DNA of 64,000 bases from Candidatus Jettenia sp. (GCA_021650895.1 CP091278.1:3377659-3441658); one strand, 5' to 3'. Numbered from the stretch's first letter, positions 42,408-55,123 are shown. Translations and numbers: made by a program. Notes: generated by a model from the sequence alone, not told the origin.

Positions 42408-45098
42408 ATGGTATCTTTATTCATTGATGGAAAGAGGGTAGATGCGGAACCTTCTCAAACAATTCTACAAGCAGCTCAAAAAATGGGGATTCATATCCCT
42501 ACTTTGTGTCATGATCCGCGTTTAGCCCCTACCGGGGCTTGCCGCATGTGTGTGGTAGAGGTAGAGGGCGCACGGCCTCTGGTAGCATCGTGTGCAACTC
42601 CTGTATCCCAAAACATGAAGATCTCTACCCGCAGTGAATCAGTCATGCGTGCACGTAAGCTTAATTTAGAACTTATCTGGTCTCACCACCCCAATGATTG
42701 TCTCACCTGTGATAAAACAGGAGAATGCCAGCTTCAGAAACTCATGTATGAATATGAGGTAAAGACCTCAAGGTTTGTAGATTGTAATCCACCACCCAGA
42801 CCGGATGATTCAAATCCGGCAATTTACCGGGATATGAATAAATGTATCCTCTGTGGAAAATGCGTTAGGATTTGCGATGAGGTACAGGACCAGCATACCT
42901 GGGCATTCTCAAACCGTGGAATGCAGACCTCAATTGCAACTGCTTTTGAGAAACCGCTAAAAGACTCTAGCTGCGTATTTTGCGGGCACTGTGTTTCCGT
43001 CTGTCCGGTTGGTGCCCTTATGGATAAACCCGCTATGAAAAAAGGCCGTCCCTGGGAGACCAAAAAGGTTCGTTCGGTTTGTTGTTACTGCGGCGTAGGA
43101 TGTAGTCTTGTGCTTCATGTAAAACAGGGGGAAATTATTAAGGTAACGGCAGACATGCAGTCCCCGCCTAATTACGGAAGCCTGTGTGTTAAAGGACGCT
43201 ATGGATTCGAATTCTATAAAAATCATGATCGCCTAAGATCCCCGCTGATCCGTGATCATATTGACCAACCCTTTCGGGAAGCAACCTGGGAGGAGGCAAT
43301 AAATCTGATAGCAAAAAAGTTCATGGAAATGAAACAGCACTATGGTCCTGATGCCTTTGGATGTCTCAGTTCCTCCCGGGGTACGAACGAAGAAAATTAT
43401 TTAGCCCAGAAATTTACCCGTGCCGTAATGGGAACGAATAACATGGATAATTGTGCCCGTGTATGTCATGCACCTTCTGTTACTGGACTCAGGGCTGCGC
43501 TGGGAAGCGGAGCAGCTACCAATTCTCTGGCAGATATTGAAGGTGCGGAAGTACTGATTGTAAGCGGTTCAAATACCACAGAAGCACATCCGGTGGCAGC
43601 CTTAAAGATTAAAAAGGCGGTACGGCAGAACGGAGCCAAATTGATTGTAATCGACCCACGTGAAATAGAACTCGTCCAATACGCAACGGTATGGCTACGT
43701 TTGAAACCGGGCACTAATGTGGCCATTCTTAATGGTCTGCTCCATGTCATTTTAAAAGAAGGATTAGAGAACAAAGAGTTTATTCAGCAGCGTACAGAAA
43801 ATATCGATATGCTGAGACAAGTAGTTGCACAGTATACACCTGAGAGAGTAGAAGAAATTACGGGGGTTCCTAAGGATGATATTATTAAGGCTGCCAGGAT
43901 CTATGCGGGCACAAAGAAGGGTATGATTGTTTATGGATTAGGAATGACCGAGCATAAGGCCGGATCCCATGGTGTTATGTCTCTTGCAAATTTAGCACTG
44001 ATTACCGGCAATATTGGTCGGCCCAATACAGGCATCAATCCTCTCCGCGGACAAAACAACGTTCAGGGATCTTGTGATATGGGTGCCTTGCCAGATGTTT
44101 ATCCCTGCTATCAAAAAGTAGATGATCCTGTTGCTCATAAAAAGTTTTCTGAAGCGTGGGGTTGCCAGCTTCCTACAAAACCAGGTTTGAAGGAACCTCA
44201 AATGTACAGAGAAGCCCTGGCTGGAAAGTTAAAGGCAATGTATATCATTGGATATGATCCTGCGGCAACACAGGCAAATATACATCATGTAGTTTCCGCC
44301 ATGAAAAAGCTTGAATTACTTGTGGTACAAGAGATCTTCATGACAGAGACTGCCAAATTAGCCCATGTAATCCTTCCTGCTAGTTGTTTTTTTGAGAAGG
44401 ACGGCACTTTCACCAATGCAGAGAGAAGGATTAGACGATTAAACCAGGCCATACCACCACCAAAAGAGACGAGGCATGATTGGGAGATTATATGCTCAAT
44501 TGCCAACGCTATGGGATATCCGATGTATTATAATCATCCAGGCGAAATTATGGAGGAAATTGCGAGTCTTACTCCAGAGTTTGCAGGGATTGATTACGGA
44601 CGACTCGAGGGAGATGGATTGGTATGGCCCGTATGGAACGAGAGACATCCTGGTACGCCCATTTTGCATAAAGATACCTTTACGAGGGGAAAGGGAAGGC
44701 TCAATGACCTCTTGTATACCCCGTCAGAAGAGTTACCCGATAATGACTATCCTTTGTATTTAACAACAGGCCGTCGTCTCTATCATTATAATAACGGTTC
44801 GATGTCACTTCGGAATCCAGAGATTCGTTCGATTAGTTCCGAAGAATTTGTAGAGATACATCCGCATGATGCCGGGCTGCTTGGTATAAAAACAGGGGAT
44901 AACGTGAGAGTAACATCAAGACGGGGTTCGCTGGAAGTGAAAGCATGTGTTACAACAAAATCCAGACCGGGGAGCGTATTCCTATCCTTTCATTTTCCAG
45001 AAACTCCAACAAATGTTTTGACGGGTCCCGGGGAGGATCTATTGGCGCTTACTCCTGAATATAAGGTGTGTGCTGTAAAGGTGGAGTCAGTTTCATAA
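42408..45098 (+). CDS. fdhA: Formate dehydrogenase catalytic subunit (NAD-type, cysteine form)
   Basis: An 896-residue molybdo/tungstopterin enzyme interconverting formate and CO2. Domain order: N-terminal [2Fe-2S] domain (CHDPRLAPTGACRMCVVEVE), His-Cys [4Fe-4S] (HHPNDCLTCDKTGECQLQ), two ferredoxin-type clusters (CILCGKCVRICDE, CVFCGHCVSVCPVGAL), the MopB [4Fe-4S] (CCYCGVGCSLVLHV) and the pterin domain. The active-site residue is Cys in NCARVCHAPSV, so no selenocysteine is needed. The last 120 residues are a molydopterin dinucleotide-binding domain (YPLYLTTGRRLYHYNNGSMS). No NuoE/F-like partner is adjacent. In an acetyl-CoA-pathway organism it would supply formate to the methyl branch. Confidence 0.94.
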   Translation: MVSLFIDGKRVDAEPSQTILQAAQKMGIHIPTLCHDPRLAPTGACRMCVVEVEGARPLVASCATPVSQNMKISTRSESVMRARKLNLELIWSHHPNDCLTCDKTGECQLQKLMYEYEVKTSRFVDCNPPPRPDDSNPAIYRDMNKCILCGKCVRICDEVQDQHTWAFSNRGMQTSIATAFEKPLKDSSCVFCGHCVSVCPVGALMDKPAMKKGRPWETKKVRSVCCYCGVGCSLVLHVKQGEIIKVTADMQSPPNYGSLCVKGRYGFEFYKNHDRLRSPLIRDHIDQPFREATWEEAINLIAKKFMEMKQHYGPDAFGCLSSSRGTNEENYLAQKFTRAVMGTNNMDNCARVCHAPSVTGLRAALGSGAATNSLADIEGAEVLIVSGSNTTEAHPVAALKIKKAVRQNGAKLIVIDPREIELVQYATVWLRLKPGTNVAILNGLLHVILKEGLENKEFIQQRTENIDMLRQVVAQYTPERVEEITGVPKDDIIKAARIYAGTKKGMIVYGLGMTEHKAGSHGVMSLANLALITGNIGRPNTGINPLRGQNNVQGSCDMGALPDVYPCYQKVDDPVAHKKFSEAWGCQLPTKPGLKEPQMYREALAGKLKAMYIIGYDPAATQANIHHVVSAMKKLELLVVQEIFMTETAKLAHVILPASCFFEKDGTFTNAERRIRRLNQAIPPPKETRHDWEIICSIANAMGYPMYYNHPGEIMEEIASLTPEFAGIDYGRLEGDGLVWPVWNERHPGTPILHKDTFTRGKGRLNDLLYTPSEELPDNDYPLYLTTGRRLYHYNNGSMSLRNPEIRSISSEEFVEIHPHDAGLLGIKTGDNVRVTSRRGSLEVKACVTTKSRPGSVFLSFHFPETPTNVLTGPGEDLLALTPEYKVCAVKVESVS

Positions 45099-45119: not shown

Positions 45120-45235
45120 TATTTGTTGTAGGGGCAGGTTTTAAACCTGCCCCTACTTGTGTTCTCCCAAACGGAAACAAGCAGAAACGTTTTGAATCGT
45201 ACGGGGCAAGGGCAAACACAAGGTTCGCCCCTACA
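45120..45235. repeat. Short palindromes after formate dehydrogenase
   Basis: Gtaggggcaggttttaaacc paired with its complement (45127-45155) makes a 13-bp stem with a TTT-type loop and could terminate the fdhA transcript. A ggcaaacacaaggttcgccc arm (45208-45232) matches one arm of the 14927 repeat. Confidence 0.6.
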
Positions 45236-45319: not shown

Positions 45320-46036
45320 ATGCAAAGGGAAAAATCAGATATTTTATATACCTTAGCTCAGGCGGTAATTGATATGGACATAGACCGCGCCAAGGAAGCA
45401 GCTGCTGAGGTGATACGATGCAAAGTCGATCCTTATACGGCAATAATGGATGGGCTTGCAAAAGGAATGGATAAGGTCAATGAGTTATTCGAAAATGAGG
45501 AATATTTTGTTCCGGAGATACTCCTCTGTGCCGATGCCATGTATGCAGGGATTGAGGTACTCAAACCTTATTTGCCAAAGGAAACTGCATGGAGTAAGAA
45601 AAAGGCTGTAATTGGTGTTGTTAAAGGTGATACCCACGATATTGGGAAGAATCTGGTTAAGATAATGCTGGATAATGCCGGATTCGAGATGCATGATTTA
45701 GGCAGGAATGTACCATATGCAAAGTTTGTTGATACAGCCGGAGAGTTACAGGCAGACCTTGTTTGCCTTTCTACTCTTATGACTACAACTATGGATGGTA
45801 TGCAGGTGGTTATTGAAGACCTTAAGAAGGCTGGTATAGCCTCTAAGGTTATGGTTGGTGGTGGACCAATATCTCAAGGGTTTGCAAGAAATATAGGTGC
45901 AGATGGGTATGCAAAGAATGCTGCCGAGGCGGTTAAGGTTGCCAATGATATAGTGCAGCGTATTCCTTTCAGTCCTCTCATACTTAAAACACCAGAGCTT
46001 GTAAGTGTTAAACGAGGGCAGGGAGGGACGCGATGA
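45320..46036 (+). CDS. Methyltransferase cognate corrinoid protein
   Basis: A 238-residue B12-binding methyl carrier of the MtaC/MtbC/MtvC type. The N-terminal 85 residues form the helical cap (MDGLAKGMDKVNELFENEEY). The Rossmann B12 domain has the ligand motif VKGDTHDIGKNLVKIML (DxHxxG, His axial ligand near residue 107), LSTLMTTTMDGM and VMVGGGPISQGFA. ATG 45320 is chosen because aggaggtg is 5-7 bases upstream. The stop overlaps the next gene (ATGA), so a 1:1 partner is expected. Confidence 0.93.
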   Translation: MQREKSDILYTLAQAVIDMDIDRAKEAAAEVIRCKVDPYTAIMDGLAKGMDKVNELFENEEYFVPEILLCADAMYAGIEVLKPYLPKETAWSKKKAVIGVVKGDTHDIGKNLVKIMLDNAGFEMHDLGRNVPYAKFVDTAGELQADLVCLSTLMTTTMDGMQVVIEDLKKAGIASKVMVGGGPISQGFARNIGADGYAKNAAEAVKVANDIVQRIPFSPLILKTPELVSVKRGQGGTR

Positions 46037-47085
46037 ATTCTCGGGATGAAATGAAACCTAAGGAGAGATTACTGGCAGCTATACAGGGAAAGGAGATTGA
46101 CAGGCTTTTGGTAAGCCCCCTGATCCTCAATTTTGCATCAAGGAGCTTAAATCTGAAAGTCAGTGATTTCTGTACGAACGGTAAAAATATGGGGGATGCG
46201 AATATTGCATGTTTTAAAAAATACCGGCATGATATTGTCTATATCTTTTCTACCACTTCTACACTGGCAGAAGCTATGGGTACCAGGATGTATTTTCCAG
46301 AAGATGACGCACCACAGGTAGAAACTCCGTTTATACAAGTAAGGGAAGATCTGAAAAAGCTTAGACCTGTGGACCCGGAGAAGGACGGCAGAATCCCTGT
46401 ATACCTGGAAGCAGTAAAACGATGTGTGGATGCTATCGGGAATGATGTTTTTATCGTACCCGTTATTGGTGCGCCATTTACAACCTCGGCAGCTTTACGA
46501 GGAACAGAGAGATTTATCAAAGAACTCTATACAGACCCTGAATTGATACATACCCTGATGAAGGTTGCCACTCAATCGGTCAAAAACCTTATCGATGCTT
46601 ATGTAAAAGTCGGCGGTGTACCAGTTACTGTTGAGCCTATAGCTACCGGCTCGATGATAAGCGAAAAACATTTTAGAGAATTTGTCTTGCCCTATCTTAA
46701 AGAGGTGTATTCACATATCCATTCTTACAAACTTCCGGGTGTACTCCATATCTGTGGAAAGACAAAAAGGGTAATACAATGCATGGCTGAAAGCGGAGCA
46801 GACATCCTGAGTATTGATAATATCAATCTTTTAGAAGCTAAGGAATTAGTAGGAGAGCAGGTTTGTTTAATGGGAAACTTAAGTCCTGCTGATGGCATGC
46901 TGAAGGGAAATCCGGAGATCATAACTGCTATGGTTAAGGATTGCGTAGCAAAGGCAGCGGATAATCCGAAGGGATATGTGGTGGCTACAGGATGCGAGGT
47001 TCCCATAAAAACACCCCATGAGAATATGATTGCATTTCTCGAGGCAGGAAGAAGGTTTGCTCGACTTCCAATTAACTTGAATTAG
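46033..47085 (+). CDS. MtaA/UroD-family corrinoid methyltransferase 1
   Basis: A 350-residue TIM-barrel protein of the uroporphyrinogen decarboxylase-like methyltransferase group (MtaA, MtbA, CmuA). It retains the zinc ligands of methyltransferases: VLHICGKTKRVIQ (HxC) and a second Cys in VATGCEVPIKTP. It lacks true UroD features. It is translationally coupled to the corrinoid protein, so it either loads a methyl group onto it or moves it to a pterin or thiol acceptor. The substrate cannot be told from sequence. Confidence 0.88.
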   Translation: MNSRDEMKPKERLLAAIQGKEIDRLLVSPLILNFASRSLNLKVSDFCTNGKNMGDANIACFKKYRHDIVYIFSTTSTLAEAMGTRMYFPEDDAPQVETPFIQVREDLKKLRPVDPEKDGRIPVYLEAVKRCVDAIGNDVFIVPVIGAPFTTSAALRGTERFIKELYTDPELIHTLMKVATQSVKNLIDAYVKVGGVPVTVEPIATGSMISEKHFREFVLPYLKEVYSHIHSYKLPGVLHICGKTKRVIQCMAESGADILSIDNINLLEAKELVGEQVCLMGNLSPADGMLKGNPEIITAMVKDCVAKAADNPKGYVVATGCEVPIKTPHENMIAFLEAGRRFARLPINLN

Positions 47086-47099
47086 ATATTCATAAATAG

Positions 47100-47600
47100 A
47101 TGTACAGGAATTTCAATTCCGTAGGGCAAACCTTTAGGTTTGCACCTTTGCAAGGCTGAAGAGTCTGTGCAAAAAGTATGATTATTTTTAGTCACGATAC
47201 ACTATACGGCGTTTTTTCATTTAGATCAACACGGTAGATGATATTATATGACATCACTTAGGACTTTTTGCACAGACTCTTCAGGGTTGCTATCCCCACG
47301 CACTCGTTCCGGCGGGGGGGCAAGGTTAAAGCCTTGCCTTACATCTTATGAAGAAATAAAAGTCGCCGAAGGCCTAATTAAATGTATAGGAATTTCAAAG
47401 TTTTTCATTATACCGTTAACCCATCCCTATCCCAATTGTAGAGACGCAAGATTTTGCGTCTCTACAGGGGAATAAACCCACCCCTAACCTCCCAAGAGGG
47501 GAATAAAAAGTCCCCTCTTGGGAGGGGATTTAGGGGTGGGTAAAGAAAGTCGTTGGATTTTGTTTTTTAAAATCCAACCTAATTTATTTCCAAATTTTAT
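47100..47600. repeat. Composite repeat interrupted by a MITE-like insertion
   Basis: A gtagggcaaacctttaggtt palindrome begins at 47120, is interrupted by the element at 47157-47283, and resumes as cagggttgctatcccc and ggttaaagccttgccttac. It then passes into gccgaaggcctaatta, gagacgcaagattttgcgtc and the cacccct/aggggtggg unit (to about 47585). No gene is present. Confidence 0.8.
47157..47283. mobile_element. 127-bp MITE-like element with perfect 21-bp terminal inverted repeats
   Basis: The termini tgaagagtctgtgcaaaaag (47157, plus t) and its exact reverse complement (ending 47283) enclose about 85 AT-rich bases with no ORF. It sits inside a palindromic repeat whose two halves can be joined across it. 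The terminal sequence looks like an insertion sequence end, but no transposase of that type is in this window. Confidence 0.75.
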
Positions 47601-47648
47601 TTAGGAACGTTATTGATAAGAAACTCTGTTTCGAATCTCTTAATAACT

Positions 47649-48665
47649 ATGATAGAAAAAGAAAGACTTCTTAAAGTTCTTCAAGGTAAGCATGTCGATA
47701 GAACCCCCGTTATTTGTCCGGGTGGTATGATGACTATGGCTAGCAGAGAGGTTATGGTAAAAACAGGTTGCCAATGGCCAGCAGTCCATAGGGATGCAAA
47801 AAAAATGGCAGAACTTTCGATTGCTATGCGCAGTGAAACGGGAATGGAGAATCTGGGCATCCCTTTTTGTATGACTGTGGAAGCCGAGGCTTTCGGTGGA
47901 GAGGTGGAGGATGGTGATGAGACCACGGAACCTAACATAGTTCATTATCCATTAAAGTCGGTAAAGCAGTGGAAGAATCTAAAGGAACTTGATCCTTATA
48001 AAGATGGACGTCTTCCAACAATTCTTGAATGTACAGCAATAGTAAGCCGAAAGGTTCCAGATACTCCTGTCATAGGTAATTTAGTTGGTCCTTTCAGTCT
48101 TGCTACCTCGTTGATTGAGGCAATGACACTGTTTAAAGCACTCCTGCGGGAACCTGATGATGTCCACGGTTTACTTTCGTTCTTAATAAAGAATAGTATC
48201 AAATATGGTAAGGCACTTATCAATAACGGTGCTGACCTCATTGTGATATCCGATCCTTCTGCAACTGGTGAGATACTCGGACCAAAACTATTCAAAGAGT
48301 TTGCAATTCCGTATTTGAATAGAATGATAAACCATATCCATATGTTTGAGAAACTCGTTATCGTACATATATGTGGAGATATAAGCGCTATTTACGGCCC
48401 TCTCAATGAGCTTGACGCTGAATGCATAAGTGTAGACTCTGCAGTAAACATAAAAGAGGCAAGGGCTATGATTCCAGGAAAAAAGCTTATGGGTAATGTA
48501 AGTACTATACTCCTACAAAAGGGCCCTATTCTCCATATACAAAAGATCTCAAAAAATCTTTTAGATCTTGGTGTCGATATCCTTGCCCCGGCATGTGGTC
48601 TCAGTGCTAAGACACCCGTTAGACATATAAAAGCTATGACGGAAGCAGCAATATTAGACTCTTGA
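47649..48665 (+). CDS. MtaA/UroD-family corrinoid methyltransferase 2
   Basis: A 338-residue second member of the family, only distantly similar to the first. Zinc ligands are again present: VHICGDISAIYG (HxC) and LAPACGLSAKTPVRH. It starts at ATG 47649 (MIEKERLLKVLQGKHVDRTP); the upstream alternative would add 12 unrelated residues. Two UroD-type enzymes with one corrinoid protein fit a methyltransferase I plus methyltransferase II pair, in which one demethylates the donor and one methylates the acceptor (tetrahydrofolate or a thiol). Confidence 0.87.
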   Translation: MIEKERLLKVLQGKHVDRTPVICPGGMMTMASREVMVKTGCQWPAVHRDAKKMAELSIAMRSETGMENLGIPFCMTVEAEAFGGEVEDGDETTEPNIVHYPLKSVKQWKNLKELDPYKDGRLPTILECTAIVSRKVPDTPVIGNLVGPFSLATSLIEAMTLFKALLREPDDVHGLLSFLIKNSIKYGKALINNGADLIVISDPSATGEILGPKLFKEFAIPYLNRMINHIHMFEKLVIVHICGDISAIYGPLNELDAECISVDSAVNIKEARAMIPGKKLMGNVSTILLQKGPILHIQKISKNLLDLGVDILAPACGLSAKTPVRHIKAMTEAAILDS

Positions 48666-48689
48666 AAAAATTACTGAGGGTTTCTATAA

Positions 48690-48760
48690 CGTTTAGGAAT
48701 TTCAATTCCGTAGGGCAACCCTTTAGGGTTGCCTGGCAAGGCTAAAGCCTTGCCCTACAT
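48690..48760. repeat. GTAGGGC composite palindrome
   Basis: Gtagggcaaccctttagggt joined to gcaaggctaaagccttgccc between the second methyltransferase and the activator gene. It may reduce read-through between them. Confidence 0.7.
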
Positions 48761-48842
48761 CTTAATCTGCAAGTAGAGTTACGGTGTTCCGTGTTCCTAC
48801 AATATGAAATTTATGTTTATTGATATTTAAGGTAAATAGATA

Positions 48843-50531
48843 ATGTATAGTGTAAAACTGACTTTTTATCCCTCTAGAATAACGGGGTCTGTACCAAAAG
48901 GAATTACGATCCTTGAGGCAGCAAGAAAGCTTGGTGTTACTATTGAAGGTCCGTGCGGCGGTACCGGAAAGTGCGGGAAGGATCTTGTGCAGGTAAGAGT
49001 AAATAAGACCCTTACTACAGTGCTTGCCTGTAGAACTGCTGCAGAAACTGACATGGAAATTATCATCCCTTGTCATGAAAAGAAAACCACGAAGATTGTT
49101 GATGGCTTCTATACAGAGAATACAAGGAAACGAAATATCAATCCTTCTGTATGGAAAGATATATTTTATAATGATCAGGGTGCTTGTTTTACAAAGGTAT
49201 ACATGAACGATAGACCCGTGGCTATTGAAGAGGGTGATACGAGATCTCAGATGTATGGAATTGCTTTAGACATCGGTACAACGACATTAGTAGCATCACT
49301 CGTTAACCTTATCAATGGCGAAATAGTAGGCGCTACTTCAACACTGAATCCCCTCGTATATTATGGTCATGATGTTATGTCGCGAATAAAGTATTCAACA
49401 TCACATCATGATGGTCTTCTTAGAATGCACAAAGAGCTTATATCCGCTATTAATCTTTTAATTTTCCTTGTATCATCTGAAAAAGGTGTAAAGCCAGAAA
49501 ATATCTATCAAACCGTAGCGGCTGGTAATACTACGATGCAGCATATCTTTTTACATAAGGAAATCAAGGGAATTGGTGAGTATCCATATAAGGCCGAGAT
49601 ACTTAATACCTTTACCACTACAGCGAAAGAGCTTTCTATTTCAACAGCGGTATATGCCACAGTAACAATCCTTCCCTGTATTTCAGCCTATGTTGGTGGA
49701 GATACAGTCTCTGGACTTGTAGCTATTGACCATATGGTACACGGGCAGGCAAACCCGTGTACCATATCCGGAAAATTTGAAGCTGGTAAATTACCAGCCC
49801 TTTTTGTTGATATTGGTACCAACGGCGAAATGGTTCTTTTGCTGGAGGATAGAATGGTAGCGACATCCACTGCTGCGGGACCGTGTTTTGAGGGGATGAC
49901 CATAAGTTCCGGCATGAGGGCCGGAGAAGGTGCAATCGAGCATGTTTGTCTGGGAGATAAACTTCTCCTGGAAGTAATAGGGAATAGCCAGCCAAGGGGT
50001 ATCTGTGGAAGCGGGCTTTTAGATATCGTTTCAGAACTTATACGGGTTGGACTTGTGAATTCTAAAGGGCGATTGCAGGGTAAGGAAGGCAATGGGCTAC
50101 CTGAAGAGTATAAAAAATGTCTGTTCGAGAAAAATGGGAAACGGCATTTTCAATTATCAGATGATGTCGCAATATCCCAGGAGGATATAAGGCAGGTTCA
50201 GCTAGCGAAAGCGGCTATCAGGACCGGCGTTGAGATGTTGTTAGCTATCTGTAATTGTAAGCCGGAGGGATTGAGAATGGTTATCATTGCAGGCGCATTT
50301 GGGTATCATCTGAAACAAGAGAGTCTTTTCAGGGTCGGTTTTTTCCCGGAACTTAAAAATGCAAGGCTTTCTTTTGTAGGTAATTCAAGTCTGGAAGGTG
50401 CTGTAATGGTAATGCTGAATAAGGACATTGTTCATAGTGCAGCTCATATTGCCAGAAATACCCAGGTTATAGAGCTCTCTCAGCTTGCAGAATTTGAAAG
50501 TATTTATATTAGAGAAATGCATTTTCCCTAG
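48843..50531 (+). CDS. Corrinoid reductive activator, RACo-type (2Fe-2S plus ASKHA)
   Basis: A 562-residue ATP-dependent activator that reduces Co(II) corrinoid back to Co(I). The N-terminal ferredoxin domain has ligands GPCGGTGKCGKD and LACRT (residues about 38-62). A linker region follows. The ASKHA ATPase (DUF4445) domain has GIALDIGTTTLVASLVNL (phosphate loop), AAGNTTMQHIFL, LFVDIGTNGEMVLLLEDR and a C-terminal MVIIAGAFGYHL. It completes the corrinoid methyl-transfer cluster at 45.3-50.5 kb, where it would service the corrinoid protein. Confidence 0.93.
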   Translation: MYSVKLTFYPSRITGSVPKGITILEAARKLGVTIEGPCGGTGKCGKDLVQVRVNKTLTTVLACRTAAETDMEIIIPCHEKKTTKIVDGFYTENTRKRNINPSVWKDIFYNDQGACFTKVYMNDRPVAIEEGDTRSQMYGIALDIGTTTLVASLVNLINGEIVGATSTLNPLVYYGHDVMSRIKYSTSHHDGLLRMHKELISAINLLIFLVSSEKGVKPENIYQTVAAGNTTMQHIFLHKEIKGIGEYPYKAEILNTFTTTAKELSISTAVYATVTILPCISAYVGGDTVSGLVAIDHMVHGQANPCTISGKFEAGKLPALFVDIGTNGEMVLLLEDRMVATSTAAGPCFEGMTISSGMRAGEGAIEHVCLGDKLLLEVIGNSQPRGICGSGLLDIVSELIRVGLVNSKGRLQGKEGNGLPEEYKKCLFEKNGKRHFQLSDDVAISQEDIRQVQLAKAAIRTGVEMLLAICNCKPEGLRMVIIAGAFGYHLKQESLFRVGFFPELKNARLSFVGNSSLEGAVMVMLNKDIVHSAAHIARNTQVIELSQLAEFESIYIREMHFP

Positions 50532-51758: not shown

Positions 51759-53357
51759 ATGAAGTGGTTTGAATTGAATAAGTCGTATCTGGTTTTATTT
51801 GTAATATTTTTGTCAGGAATTTATGGATGTAGCTATAAAGGAACTGAGGTTGAAGAAAAACCGCCTTATGCACATGGGCATATCGAAGAAGAACCGCCAC
51901 CCAGGCATCATCAGGCAATGCATAAACAGAAAGAGCCGGCTAAGGCAGAATCAGATATGCTGGTAATTATGGGGGCATTTCCCACAGGGGATCCGCACAG
52001 TAGTGTAATCCTTGTGGAAACAATGGTTCCTAGAATGGGTCAGGTTAATCAGCCATATGAATATCTTATCAAGGTTACCAATCTTACACAAGTACCCGTT
52101 AGAGATGTTGAAGTTGTTCAAACACTTTCAGAAAAATTTCAAATTAAGAAATCTGATCCTGAGATGCAAAAACCTCTCAAAGAGGGTGTTGCTAAATGGT
52201 TAATAGGGGATATTAAATCGAAAGAGACTAAGGTAATAAGGGTCACCGGTGTACCTACGACAGAAGGTGAAATACCGTTTTGCACGACCGCAACGTACAA
52301 CTTACCGGAATTTTGTGTAACCCCGGTGATTGTTCAGCCAAAATTAAGCCTTGCCAAACGTATGCCGTCTGAAGTTTTAATCTGTGATCCCATTCCTGTA
52401 ACTCTTATCATAAGCAATACCGGTACTGGAGTTGCCCAAGATGTTCAGATTAAGGAATCTTTGCCTTCAGGATTAACAACTGCGGATGGTAAGGCGAGTA
52501 TAATGCAGACAATTGGCTCGTTGCAGCCAAAAGAGTCACGTGAAGTTTCATTAACCCTTAAGGCAGAAAAGACCGGTCAGTATACCAATGTTGCAACAGC
52601 GTCTGGTGTGGGTGGATTAAGTGCCGAATCTAATTCTACTACAGTTATCGTGAAACAGCCGATATTGGCAATTGAGAAAACAGGTCCTGAAAAGAGGTAT
52701 GTAGGCCGAAAAATTACTTACGATATTGAAGTTAGTAACGAAGGTGATGGCCAAGCAGCATCAACAGTTATTGAAGACACTATACCTGCCAATGCATCAT
52801 TTGTAAGTGCAAGCAATGGAGGTACATTTGCTGGCAATACTGTTAAATGGAATGTAGGGACTCTGCAACCTAAAGATTCTGAAAAAGTAAGTGTAACACT
52901 TCGTGCCGAAAGTATAGGAAAGGCAGAAAACAAAGCGGTTGCAAAGGCCGTTTGTGCCGAGGCTGTATCTACATCGGCTGTGACTCAGATATTAGGTATA
53001 CCCGCGATCTTACTTGAGGTAATAGATGTTGAAGATCCAGTTGCCGTTGGCGATTCTGTAACCTATGTGATAACGGTAACCAACCAGGGTTCTGATACAA
53101 GCACAAACACGGAGATTACCTGCACATTAGAAGATACCATGCAATACGTATCATCAACTGGACCTACAAAGGCAATCGTAGAAGGGAAAGAGGTAAGTTT
53201 TGGTCCACTACCAACGTTAGCCCCGAAAGCACAAGCAAGCTGGAAGCTTATCGTCAAGGCTGTGGATGAAGGCGATGTTAGACTTAAGGTTAGTTTGATG
53301 GAGGATTGTTTAGAGAGACCGGTTGAAGAAACAGAAGCTACTAACTTCTATCAATAA
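51759..53357 (+). CDS. DUF11-repeat envelope lipoprotein 1
   Basis: A 532-residue exported lipoprotein. The signal peptide ends in GIYGCS, a lipobox with the acylated Cys near residue 24. A proline/histidine-rich linker is followed by four DUF11 (OmcB-like) beta domains. Examples are ETMVPRMGQVNQPYEYLIKV, DPIPVTLIISNTGTGVAQDV, KRYVGRKITYDIEVSNEGDG and DSVTYVITVTNQGSDTSTNT. Cys pairs in IPFCTTATYNLPEFCV and EITCTLED could form disulfides. Such proteins reinforce the cell envelope in chlamydiae and related groups. A close paralogue follows. Confidence 0.88.
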   Translation: MKWFELNKSYLVLFVIFLSGIYGCSYKGTEVEEKPPYAHGHIEEEPPPRHHQAMHKQKEPAKAESDMLVIMGAFPTGDPHSSVILVETMVPRMGQVNQPYEYLIKVTNLTQVPVRDVEVVQTLSEKFQIKKSDPEMQKPLKEGVAKWLIGDIKSKETKVIRVTGVPTTEGEIPFCTTATYNLPEFCVTPVIVQPKLSLAKRMPSEVLICDPIPVTLIISNTGTGVAQDVQIKESLPSGLTTADGKASIMQTIGSLQPKESREVSLTLKAEKTGQYTNVATASGVGGLSAESNSTTVIVKQPILAIEKTGPEKRYVGRKITYDIEVSNEGDGQAASTVIEDTIPANASFVSASNGGTFAGNTVKWNVGTLQPKDSEKVSVTLRAESIGKAENKAVAKAVCAEAVSTSAVTQILGIPAILLEVIDVEDPVAVGDSVTYVITVTNQGSDTSTNTEITCTLEDTMQYVSSTGPTKAIVEGKEVSFGPLPTLAPKAQASWKLIVKAVDEGDVRLKVSLMEDCLERPVEETEATNFYQ

Positions 53358-53468: not shown

Positions 53469-53533
53469 TTATAAAAGATATATCAATGCTATATGTTTAC
53501 ATTTTTAAATTTTTTAATAAAAGGATTATATGT

Positions 53534-55123
53534 ATGAATAGAGGGTATGGAGTAAATTCTTTACTATTTTTATTACTTATCTTAACAACCAGTATCTGTA
53601 GTTGTGGATATCAAAGAAGTAGTATTAGAGAAGATACGAAAACGTATGCATATGGCCGTTCGGAAGATACCGTATCCTCATCTGCAAACCGTAAATATCT
53701 ATCTACGGAAAGAGATACGAAAAAACGTGGAATTTACGGCACATTTACTACTGGCAATAAAAGTCATGGTGTTATCTTTATAGAGAAAGATATTCCAACA
53801 GAAGTCCTGGCCGGACAACTTTTTAATTACAGTATTAATGTTACGAATGTTACTGATATGAATATAAAAGACGTTGAGTTGATTGAGACAATTTCCCATA
53901 AATTTAAGGTAAAAAACTCAATTCCTAAAATGAAAGATAATATAAGGGAAGGCTCCGCGCGATGGTTTGTAGGAAATTTAGGTCCCAGAGAGACCAAAGT
54001 AATTCGTATTACGGGAGTTGCTATGGAAACAGGGGAGATACCTTTTTGCACAGACGTTGTATATAAATTACCACCATTTTGTGTTACTACAACTGTAGTA
54101 CAACCAAAACTGAATCTCACCAAACGCATGCCTGCTGAGGTTATGATGTGTGATACAATACCAGTAACTTTTGTTGTAAGCAATACTGGTACAGGTGTTG
54201 CCCGGGATGTTCAGATTAAGGAAACTTTGCCATCAGGGTTAAATACGGTAACTGGTGAAACTAACGTAATGCAGGAGATTGGTGCGTTACAATCGGGCGA
54301 ATCACGTGAGATTTCTTTAACCCTTAAGCCGGTTAAAACTGGTAAATATACCAATACTGCAGTGGCTACTGCAGAAGGTGGATTAAGCGCAAAATCTAAC
54401 GCAGCTACCGTCACGGTAAGAAAACCAGTGTTAGCAATTACGAAAACAGGTCCCGACAAGAGATACATTGGTCGAAAAATTACCTATGATATTATTGTGA
54501 GCAACAAGGGTGATGGACCTGCACTTTCAACAGTTATTGAGGATACCATACCTGTTAATATAGCATTTGTGAGTGCAAGTAGTGGGGGCTTATTAACAGG
54601 AAGAAGTGTTGTCTGGAACTTAGGAACTTTACAACCACAGGATTCTAAAAAAGTTAGATTGACGCTTCGTGCCGATGGTATAGGAAGGGCAATAAATAAA
54701 GCGACTGCAAAAGCAGTTTGCTCGGAGCCTGTGTCTGCATCGGCTGTAACAGAGATATTAGGTATTCCAGCAATCCTTCTTGAAGTAATAGATACTCTGG
54801 ATCCAACAGAGGTTGGTGAAGCCGAAACCTATGTTATCACGGTAACTAATCAGGGTTCAGATGTTAGTACCAACATCAAAATTGCCTGCTTGTTAGAGGA
54901 TTCAATGCAATATGTATCATCCTCAGGACCGACAACAGGAGTACTAGATGGTAAAACCTTGAATTTTAGTCCTCTGGCAAGCCTGGCGCCAAAAGCAAAA
55001 GTGAGTTGGAAGGTTGTTATTAAAGCAATGAGTTCTGGAGACGCCCGGTTTAAGGTCAGTATGATTGAGGATTGTCTTGCCAGACCGGTTGAAGAGACGG
55101 AAGCAACGAATTTCTATAAATAA
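53534..55123 (+). CDS. DUF11-repeat envelope lipoprotein 2
   Basis: A 529-residue paralogue of the preceding protein with the same domain order (four DUF11 domains) and many identical stretches, such as SNTGTGVARDVQIKE and ITYDIIVSNKGDGPA. The N-terminal linker is different. The signal peptide ends in TSICSCGYQ, a likely lipobox. ATG 53534 is chosen over 53486 because it gives a normal signal peptide and has an aaagga site. The pair clearly arose by tandem duplication. Confidence 0.87.
   Translation: MNRGYGVNSLLFLLLILTTSICSCGYQRSSIREDTKTYAYGRSEDTVSSSANRKYLSTERDTKKRGIYGTFTTGNKSHGVIFIEKDIPTEVLAGQLFNYSINVTNVTDMNIKDVELIETISHKFKVKNSIPKMKDNIREGSARWFVGNLGPRETKVIRITGVAMETGEIPFCTDVVYKLPPFCVTTTVVQPKLNLTKRMPAEVMMCDTIPVTFVVSNTGTGVARDVQIKETLPSGLNTVTGETNVMQEIGALQSGESREISLTLKPVKTGKYTNTAVATAEGGLSAKSNAATVTVRKPVLAITKTGPDKRYIGRKITYDIIVSNKGDGPALSTVIEDTIPVNIAFVSASSGGLLTGRSVVWNLGTLQPQDSKKVRLTLRADGIGRAINKATAKAVCSEPVSASAVTEILGIPAILLEVIDTLDPTEVGEAETYVITVTNQGSDVSTNIKIACLLEDSMQYVSSSGPTTGVLDGKTLNFSPLASLAPKAKVSWKVVIKAMSSGDARFKVSMIEDCLARPVEETEATNFYK

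Follow-up and report, generated by a model that had tools for sequence, protein, structure and literature searches.

The window analysed here, a stretch of 64,000 nucleotides from Candidatus Jettenia sp. (GCA_021650895.1, CP091278.1:3377659-3441658), belongs to a single-contig genome of 3.82 Mb; among named organisms, Ca. Jettenia ecosi is the nearest to it (protein identity 90-98%). At positions 45320-50531 it carries an operon of four genes, all on the + strand, encoding a corrinoid protein, methyltransferase A (MT-A), methyltransferase B (MT-B) and a RACo-type activase. The likely interpretation assigns this operon to the type 1 mlp gene clusters (MGCs), which are corrinoid-dependent systems for the transfer of methyl groups on sulfur or selenium, and reads it as a methyl-selenide demethylase that feeds selenoprotein synthesis. 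Thus, it is probably a selenium-salvage system rather than a means of using methanol or methoxylated aromatics. The MGC appears to be unreported in anammox bacteria so far: the text of PMC10418091 makes no mention of anammox or Planctomycetota, and no open-access paper treating selenoproteins of anammox bacteria in its title or abstract turned up.

Gene content and family of the operon

The first gene (45320..46036, +), directly preceded by an AGGAGG ribosome-binding site, encodes a corrinoid (B12-binding) methyl-carrier protein (PF02607 and PF02310) with two B12-binding domains and a DxHxxG motif (GDTHDIG); its nearest NCBIfam model is TIGR02370, with a score under the cut-off of that model. 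It is followed by two UroD-superfamily zinc methyltransferases, MT-A (46033..47085, +; PF01208, 271 bits), which starts within the stop of the corrinoid gene in an ATGA overlap, and MT-B (47649..48665, +; PF01208, 286 bits), for which an alternative ORF start exists at 47613, although 47649 is more likely and is the start used by relatives. The last gene (48843..50531, +) encodes a reductive activase of the RACo/Ram type that serves the corrinoid protein, with the RACo middle and C-terminal domains (PF14574, PF17651). All genes are intact, and dN/dS values of 0.03-0.26 in comparisons with J. ecosi and a further four relatives (0.03-0.07 for MT-A) indicate purifying selection.

The zinc ligands of MT-A, H239 and C241 (HxC) and C321, are invariant in 13 sequences, the HICG and PACG motifs of MT-B are likewise invariant, and the HxC...C residues of both enzymes align with those of Methanosarcina mazei MtaA (4ay7). 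A His-Cys-Cys set favors sulfur or selenium, whereas in the O-methyltransferases of this superfamily carboxylates take their place or ligands are missing (PMC10418091); no such O-type site, with a carboxylate ligand or a lost Cys, was found in MT-A or MT-B. MT-B exceeds the cut-off of the MtaA/CmuA subfamily (NF004889, 387 bits, cut-off 244; TIGR01463, 244 bits, cut-off 235), and the methanogen MtaA/MtbA proteins are its nearest relatives by profile (E 6e-73 against 4ay7), with identical zinc ligands. However, it remains below both equivalog models of coenzyme M methyltransferases (267 bits for NF040654, cut-off 400; 229 bits for NF041608, cut-off 600) and was not placed as MtaA in our tree.

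By definition, the genes of an MGC share one orientation, the gaps between them stay below 2 kb, and no tetrahydrofolate (H4folate) methylase occurs within 20 kb; type 1 contains at least one Mlp2 and one Mlp3 (PMC10418091). In the window, all genes of the operon are on the + strand with no divergent gene between them, the largest gap is about 0.56 kb, and the nearest PF00809 gene is about 185 kb off. The two methyltransferases belong to separate clades and occupy gene positions as in Clostridium ljungdahlii; from this gene position and the closeness of MT-B to MtaA, MT-A can provisionally be equated with Mlp2 and MT-B with Mlp3. In addition, both enzymes carry His-Cys-Cys zinc ligands, and the host encodes the selenocysteine (Sec) machinery that accompanies selenium-type MGCs, namely selA, selB, selD and a Sec-containing formate dehydrogenase (FDH).

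The operon therefore resembles the type 1 MGC of Kountz & Balskus 2023 (PMC10418091) in its Mlp2-type and Mlp3-type MtaA-like proteins, corrinoid protein and Ram/RACE activase, in its single direction, short gaps and His-Cys-Cys sites, in the lack of a nearby H4folate methylase and in its Sec-synthesizing host. It differs in its anammox (Planctomycetota) host, in having no Mlp1, in an activase with Asp for the third [2Fe-2S] Cys and in the Cys-type FDH gene beside it. The N-terminal [2Fe-2S] motif of the activase reads CGGTGKCGKD, and the Asp is common to all anammox MGC activases seen (this one and 16 anammox activases), one of which reads CRKD, whereas all others among the 71 compared, AcsV of the same genome included, keep the Cys wherever the motif is legible (CGKC or similar); the substitution could mean an altered cluster or an altered potential. 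The dimethylselenide system SdmABC of Methanococcus (M. voltae, with a homologous locus in M. maripaludis, PMC11097638) likewise combines a corrinoid protein with UroD-type methyltransferases in a host with paired Sec and Cys enzymes; that system, likened here by description and not by sequence, is archaeal, has a coenzyme M methyltransferase and is known to be induced by selenium depletion.

The first-pass annotation had described a corrinoid protein, two UroD-type methyltransferases with HxC...C sites, a RACo-type activator and an upstream FDH, and all five genes are indeed present and intact. Its view of methyl transfer through a corrinoid, by MtaA-like enzymes with a RACo activator, is likewise supported. 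The claim built on this view, that the four parts match those of an acetogen O-demethylase and that methanol, methoxylated aromatics, methylamines or methylthiols could act as donors to the acetyl-CoA pathway, is not; a catabolic demethylase of this kind, which would draw electrons from methyl groups handed on to H4folate and the acetyl-CoA pathway, is highly improbable. It is true that the acetogen O-demethylase systems (Mtv, Odm, Vdm) and Cdm share with the operon a corrinoid protein, a UroD-type enzyme and a RACo-type activase, and that an AcsE/AcsV region is present elsewhere in the genome. However, O-demethylase systems rely on a pterin-binding second methyltransferase (MTII) for methylating H4folate. 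The systems just named own such a pterin-type MTII together with carboxylate or absent zinc ligands, and neither is found in the operon of the window. In the whole genome PF00809 is represented by two proteins, about 185 kb and 1.8 Mb off and neither in the window: the nearer, at 3.613 Mb, is DHPS-like as judged by score only and is probably DHPS, while the other is AcsE-like and lies in the AcsV region. No MtaB-, MttB- or MtmB-type gene occurs in the cluster (the rest of the genome was not searched for these), every named relative that could be typed belongs to a gene cluster of MGC type and none to an O-demethylase operon, and the distribution of the operon tracks the selenocysteine trait, not lifestyle. 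An O-demethylase or methanol system was thus rejected for want of a pterin-type MTII and because of the zinc ligands. Methylotrophy fails here for reasons other than those anticipated, i.e., heme-type UroD proteins or a missing acceptor pathway: the AcsE/AcsV region exists, and HemE was rejected for both enzymes, which score 102 and 77 bits against a TIGR01464 cut-off of 303 bits.

Distribution and the selenocysteine trait

As the first-pass annotation had suggested, the same cluster was looked for in other Brocadiales. The four-gene order is kept in about 22 of the 33 Brocadiaceae genomes, some copies being broken by contig ends, with identities of 76-98% for the corrinoid protein, 81-97% for MT-A, 67-91% for MT-B and 58-90% for the activase; outside Brocadiaceae, relatives of the corrinoid protein reach 63% identity. 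The flanking genes vary. As the unit is constant while its neighbors change, the functional unit comprises the four genes, and the recurring gene order, together with the dN/dS values, shows that the arrangement is not due to chance. One contig binned as Ca. Brocadia sp. MAG_8 (G020:C15; L105 / L128) is identical to the Jettenia locus of the window and probably represents contamination of that metagenome-assembled genome (MAG).

MT-B was also used to scan 84,980 species' genomes. Among the best 80 of 448 related places, practically all non-anammox matches have genes for a corrinoid protein, an activase and another UroD-type protein beside them, unless the contig ends, and their hosts include Clostridia (with Clostridioides difficile), Selenomonas, Geobacterales, Nitrosomonadales and others. 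In a tree of 170 proteins, three lineages separated. The anammox MT-A sequences form a single, fully supported clade, as do the MT-B sequences, and the two fall in different lineages. At full support, MT-A joins Geobacterales, Nitrosomonadales and two planctomycetes (G062 and G065), and MT-B shows the same grouping with a support of only 80; the same MGC-bearing Clostridia, Geobacterales and Nitrosomonadales contribute one copy to the MT-A side and one to the MT-B side of the tree. The MGCs of Geobacterales and Nitrosomonadales (L169, L178, L185, L197, L200) have an extra CobW-type GTPase, a hydantoinase-like ASKHA protein and a DUF1638 protein nearby, none of which is encoded in the anammox unit.

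The link with selenium was assessed with three independent markers, selD and selA searched in the class and FDH in the family. In the Jettenia genome, selA followed by selB is located at about 0.92 Mb (L214), and selD (G000:C1:2198205-2199131, L116) has an in-frame TGA in the context CGG-U-AGKI, the UxxK site of selenoprotein SelD; one in-frame TGA is present in the SelD of most operon-bearing genomes. Folding for a SECIS element in SelD gave nothing clear, and ARAGORN found no tRNASec in the stretches of this genome that were scanned, a scan that did not extend to the whole genome. Across the 33 Brocadiaceae genomes, operon and selD occur together in 21, the operon alone in one, selD alone in four (all incomplete or very fragmented MAGs) and neither in seven. 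When only the 23 high-quality genomes (completeness at least 90%, contamination at most 5%) are considered and the machinery is taken as selA or selD, 16 have both, one has the operon only, none has the machinery only and six have neither; the p-values (5e-4 by Fisher's test for the full set, 7e-5 for the high-quality set) ignore shared ancestry, with perhaps only two or three independent joint absences. Operon and Sec markers are both absent from the three genomes of genus g6, which we infer to be Kuenenia-like, from G035 and from two of the eleven Brocadia-type (g3) genomes, all of which have only Cys-FDH.

The strongest single context for the selenium link is found in G062, a planctomycete MAG related at the class level (L098; G062:C123, 4289-14750), in which selD, tRNASec, the corrinoid gene, MT-A, MT-B, a 4Fe-4S membrane protein gene, selA and selB form a one-strand run. 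Published work points the same way. Mlp2 of C. ljungdahlii (ClMlp2) methylated selenide in vitro (PMC10418091), and the same paper states that an M. voltae mutant in sdmC, which encodes an Mlp2, lost dimethylselenide use. In M. maripaludis, depletion of selenium raised the matching UroD operon 5.6-7.8 log2-fold, a condition in which Cys isoforms take over from Sec enzymes (PMC11097638).

Apart from the shared ancestry behind the p-values, several points weigh against the selenium-salvage reading. The tree holds no C. ljungdahlii or M. voltae references, the names Mlp2 and Mlp3 being given by position, similarity and published description. One genome, G024, has the operon and lacks selA, selD and Sec-FDH; it is fragmented, but three separate chance losses are not very likely. 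Conversely, a family of the same order (f3) has the Sec machinery without the operon. Finally, the mechanism suggested for anammox bacteria draws on sequence and on published work in other hosts.

Formate dehydrogenases and competing functions

Upstream of the operon lies the gene for a Cys-type FDH alpha subunit with a NuoG-like N-terminus (42408..45098, +; TIGR01591, 860 bits, cut-off 666). The adjacency pointed out in the first-pass annotation is thus real in the window but is not general: FDH adjoins the operon in only three genera, Jettenia (g1), g4 and g5, with a remnant in one Brocadia genome (G019), and a generally conserved functional unit of FDH and operon was rejected on this ground. 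The second FDH of the same genome (G000:C1:3552697-3554694, L215), 50% identical overall to that of the window, has an in-frame TGA at the position of the Cys (NNVDQCART-U-HAPSV vs NNMDNCARV-C-HAPSV); folding for a SECIS element at this site gave a stem with a GGUCU loop and a z-score that was not significant. We interpret the Cys-FDH, most plausibly, as an isozyme without selenium that would be of use in selenium shortage. As M. maripaludis exchanges Sec enzymes for Cys isozymes on depletion, the adjacency acquires a different possible meaning, and by this analogy it suggests a selenium-shortage locus in which Cys-FDH and operon may be co-regulated.

The operon was first favored as the anammox methionine synthase. 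According to this hypothesis, the operon removes methyl groups from methyl-sulfur compounds and MT-B adds them to homocysteine or sulfide, so that the system would serve methionine salvage or act as a methionine synthase independent of folate. The Jettenia genome lacks the MetH homocysteine domain (PF02574), the MetE/Mes core (PF01717) and HcyBio (PF01837), and the methionine pathway of anammox bacteria has been called incomplete (PMC9909701, PMC6714388), so MT-B could act on homocysteine. Methionine salvage has also been proposed for MGCs outside the selenium clade (PMC10418091), and in a Nitrosomonadales MAG (L178) about 3 kb separate the MGC from a MetE-core gene. However, the Kuenenia-like genomes and G035 have neither the operon nor any known methionine synthase; thus, the operon is not the general anammox answer to methionine synthesis, and the hypothesis was weakened accordingly. 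The MetH homocysteine domain and HcyBio occur in none of the 33 Brocadiaceae genomes, and the MetE core occurs only in six Brocadia-type genomes, where it coexists with the operon. Together with the co-occurrence of the operon with selenium genes, these observations make the methyl-sulfur version unlikely. The MetE-core (Meth_synt_2) gene of the Nitrosomonadales MAG (L178, 2477-3658), upstream of its MGC, resembles the copy in some Brocadia-type genomes.

It has also been proposed (PMC10418091) that such clusters serve in detoxification only, demethylating the methylselenol that arises from selenide and SAM in a side reaction, with no role in acquiring outside selenium. The retention of the operon in Sec-synthesizing genomes would agree with this, but the M. 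voltae and M. maripaludis data indicate scavenging under selenium shortage, and we give pure detoxification a low probability.

Several further features were observed around the operon and elsewhere in these genomes. The spacer between MT-A and MT-B (47086..47648, no strand assigned) holds no conserved gene and has a repeat-like sequence; imperfect palindromes such as GTAGGGGCAGGTTTTAAACCTGCCCCTAC, noted by eye and uncounted, recur in the intergenic stretches 45120-45230, 47100-47560 and 48690-48760. Beside the operon, 51759-53357 and 53486-55123 encode tandem paralogous secreted repeat proteins, a pair also present in the two other Jettenia genomes. Elsewhere in the Jettenia genome, a fusion of B12-binding and UroD domains without the MtaA zinc motif (G000:C1:1966188-1967183; L003, L110) adjoins a PAS-type sensor protein and is perhaps a corrinoid-based sensor. 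A fusion of UroD and RACo-type activase of about 970 aa, unlike the MGC, is found in G030 (L036 / L100) and G025 (L101); its first zinc Cys is missing, and in G030 it adjoins a separate corrinoid protein. The nearly complete Kuenenia-like genomes G029 and G031 have no UroD-family protein at all, and therefore no HemE, which implies that their heme is obtained by another route.

Proposed function and significance

Our analyses show the gene content, the zinc ligands, the family, the co-occurrence with the Sec trait and the paired Sec and Cys FDHs; the model given here additionally infers the substrates, the way in which the methyl group moves, its acceptor and co-regulation with FDH. RACo would generate Co(I) by reducing the corrinoid on the small carrier protein. 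MT-A, as the Mlp2-type enzyme, would bind a methylated selenium compound (methylselenol, dimethylselenide) at its His-Cys-Cys zinc and transfer the methyl group of that compound to Co(I), which would release selenide; MT-B, as the Mlp3-type enzyme, would take the methyl group from CH3-Co(III) and donate it to a thiol, be it sulfide, homocysteine or another. The selenide may then enter, via SelD, SelA and SelB, the synthesis of Sec-FDH and Sec-SelD. An extended version, in which Cys-FDH and the methyl-selenide demethylase are made together in shortage as a selenium switch for anammox carbon fixation, while MT-B closes the missing methionine step by methylating homocysteine as a UroD-type, folate-independent methionine synthase, is speculative and distinctly unlikely.

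Taken together, our analyses replace an unsupported claim of anammox methylotrophy with a testable claim of selenium salvage. The MGC kind itself is already known, and anammox bacteria represent a new physiological setting for it; the joint presence and absence of MGC and Sec genes within one family, along with the selD-tRNASec-MGC-selA-selB run of the planctomycete MAG, provides independent support for the proposed role of MGCs in selenium metabolism. Many anammox bacteria would accordingly be selenocysteine users with two formate dehydrogenases, one with and one without selenium, and a salvage system for methylated selenium. If this is true, CO2 fixation in anammox reactors could depend on the selenium supply, which might separate the genera that keep the Sec and MGC genes (Jettenia and most Brocadia) from those without them (the Kuenenia-like genus).

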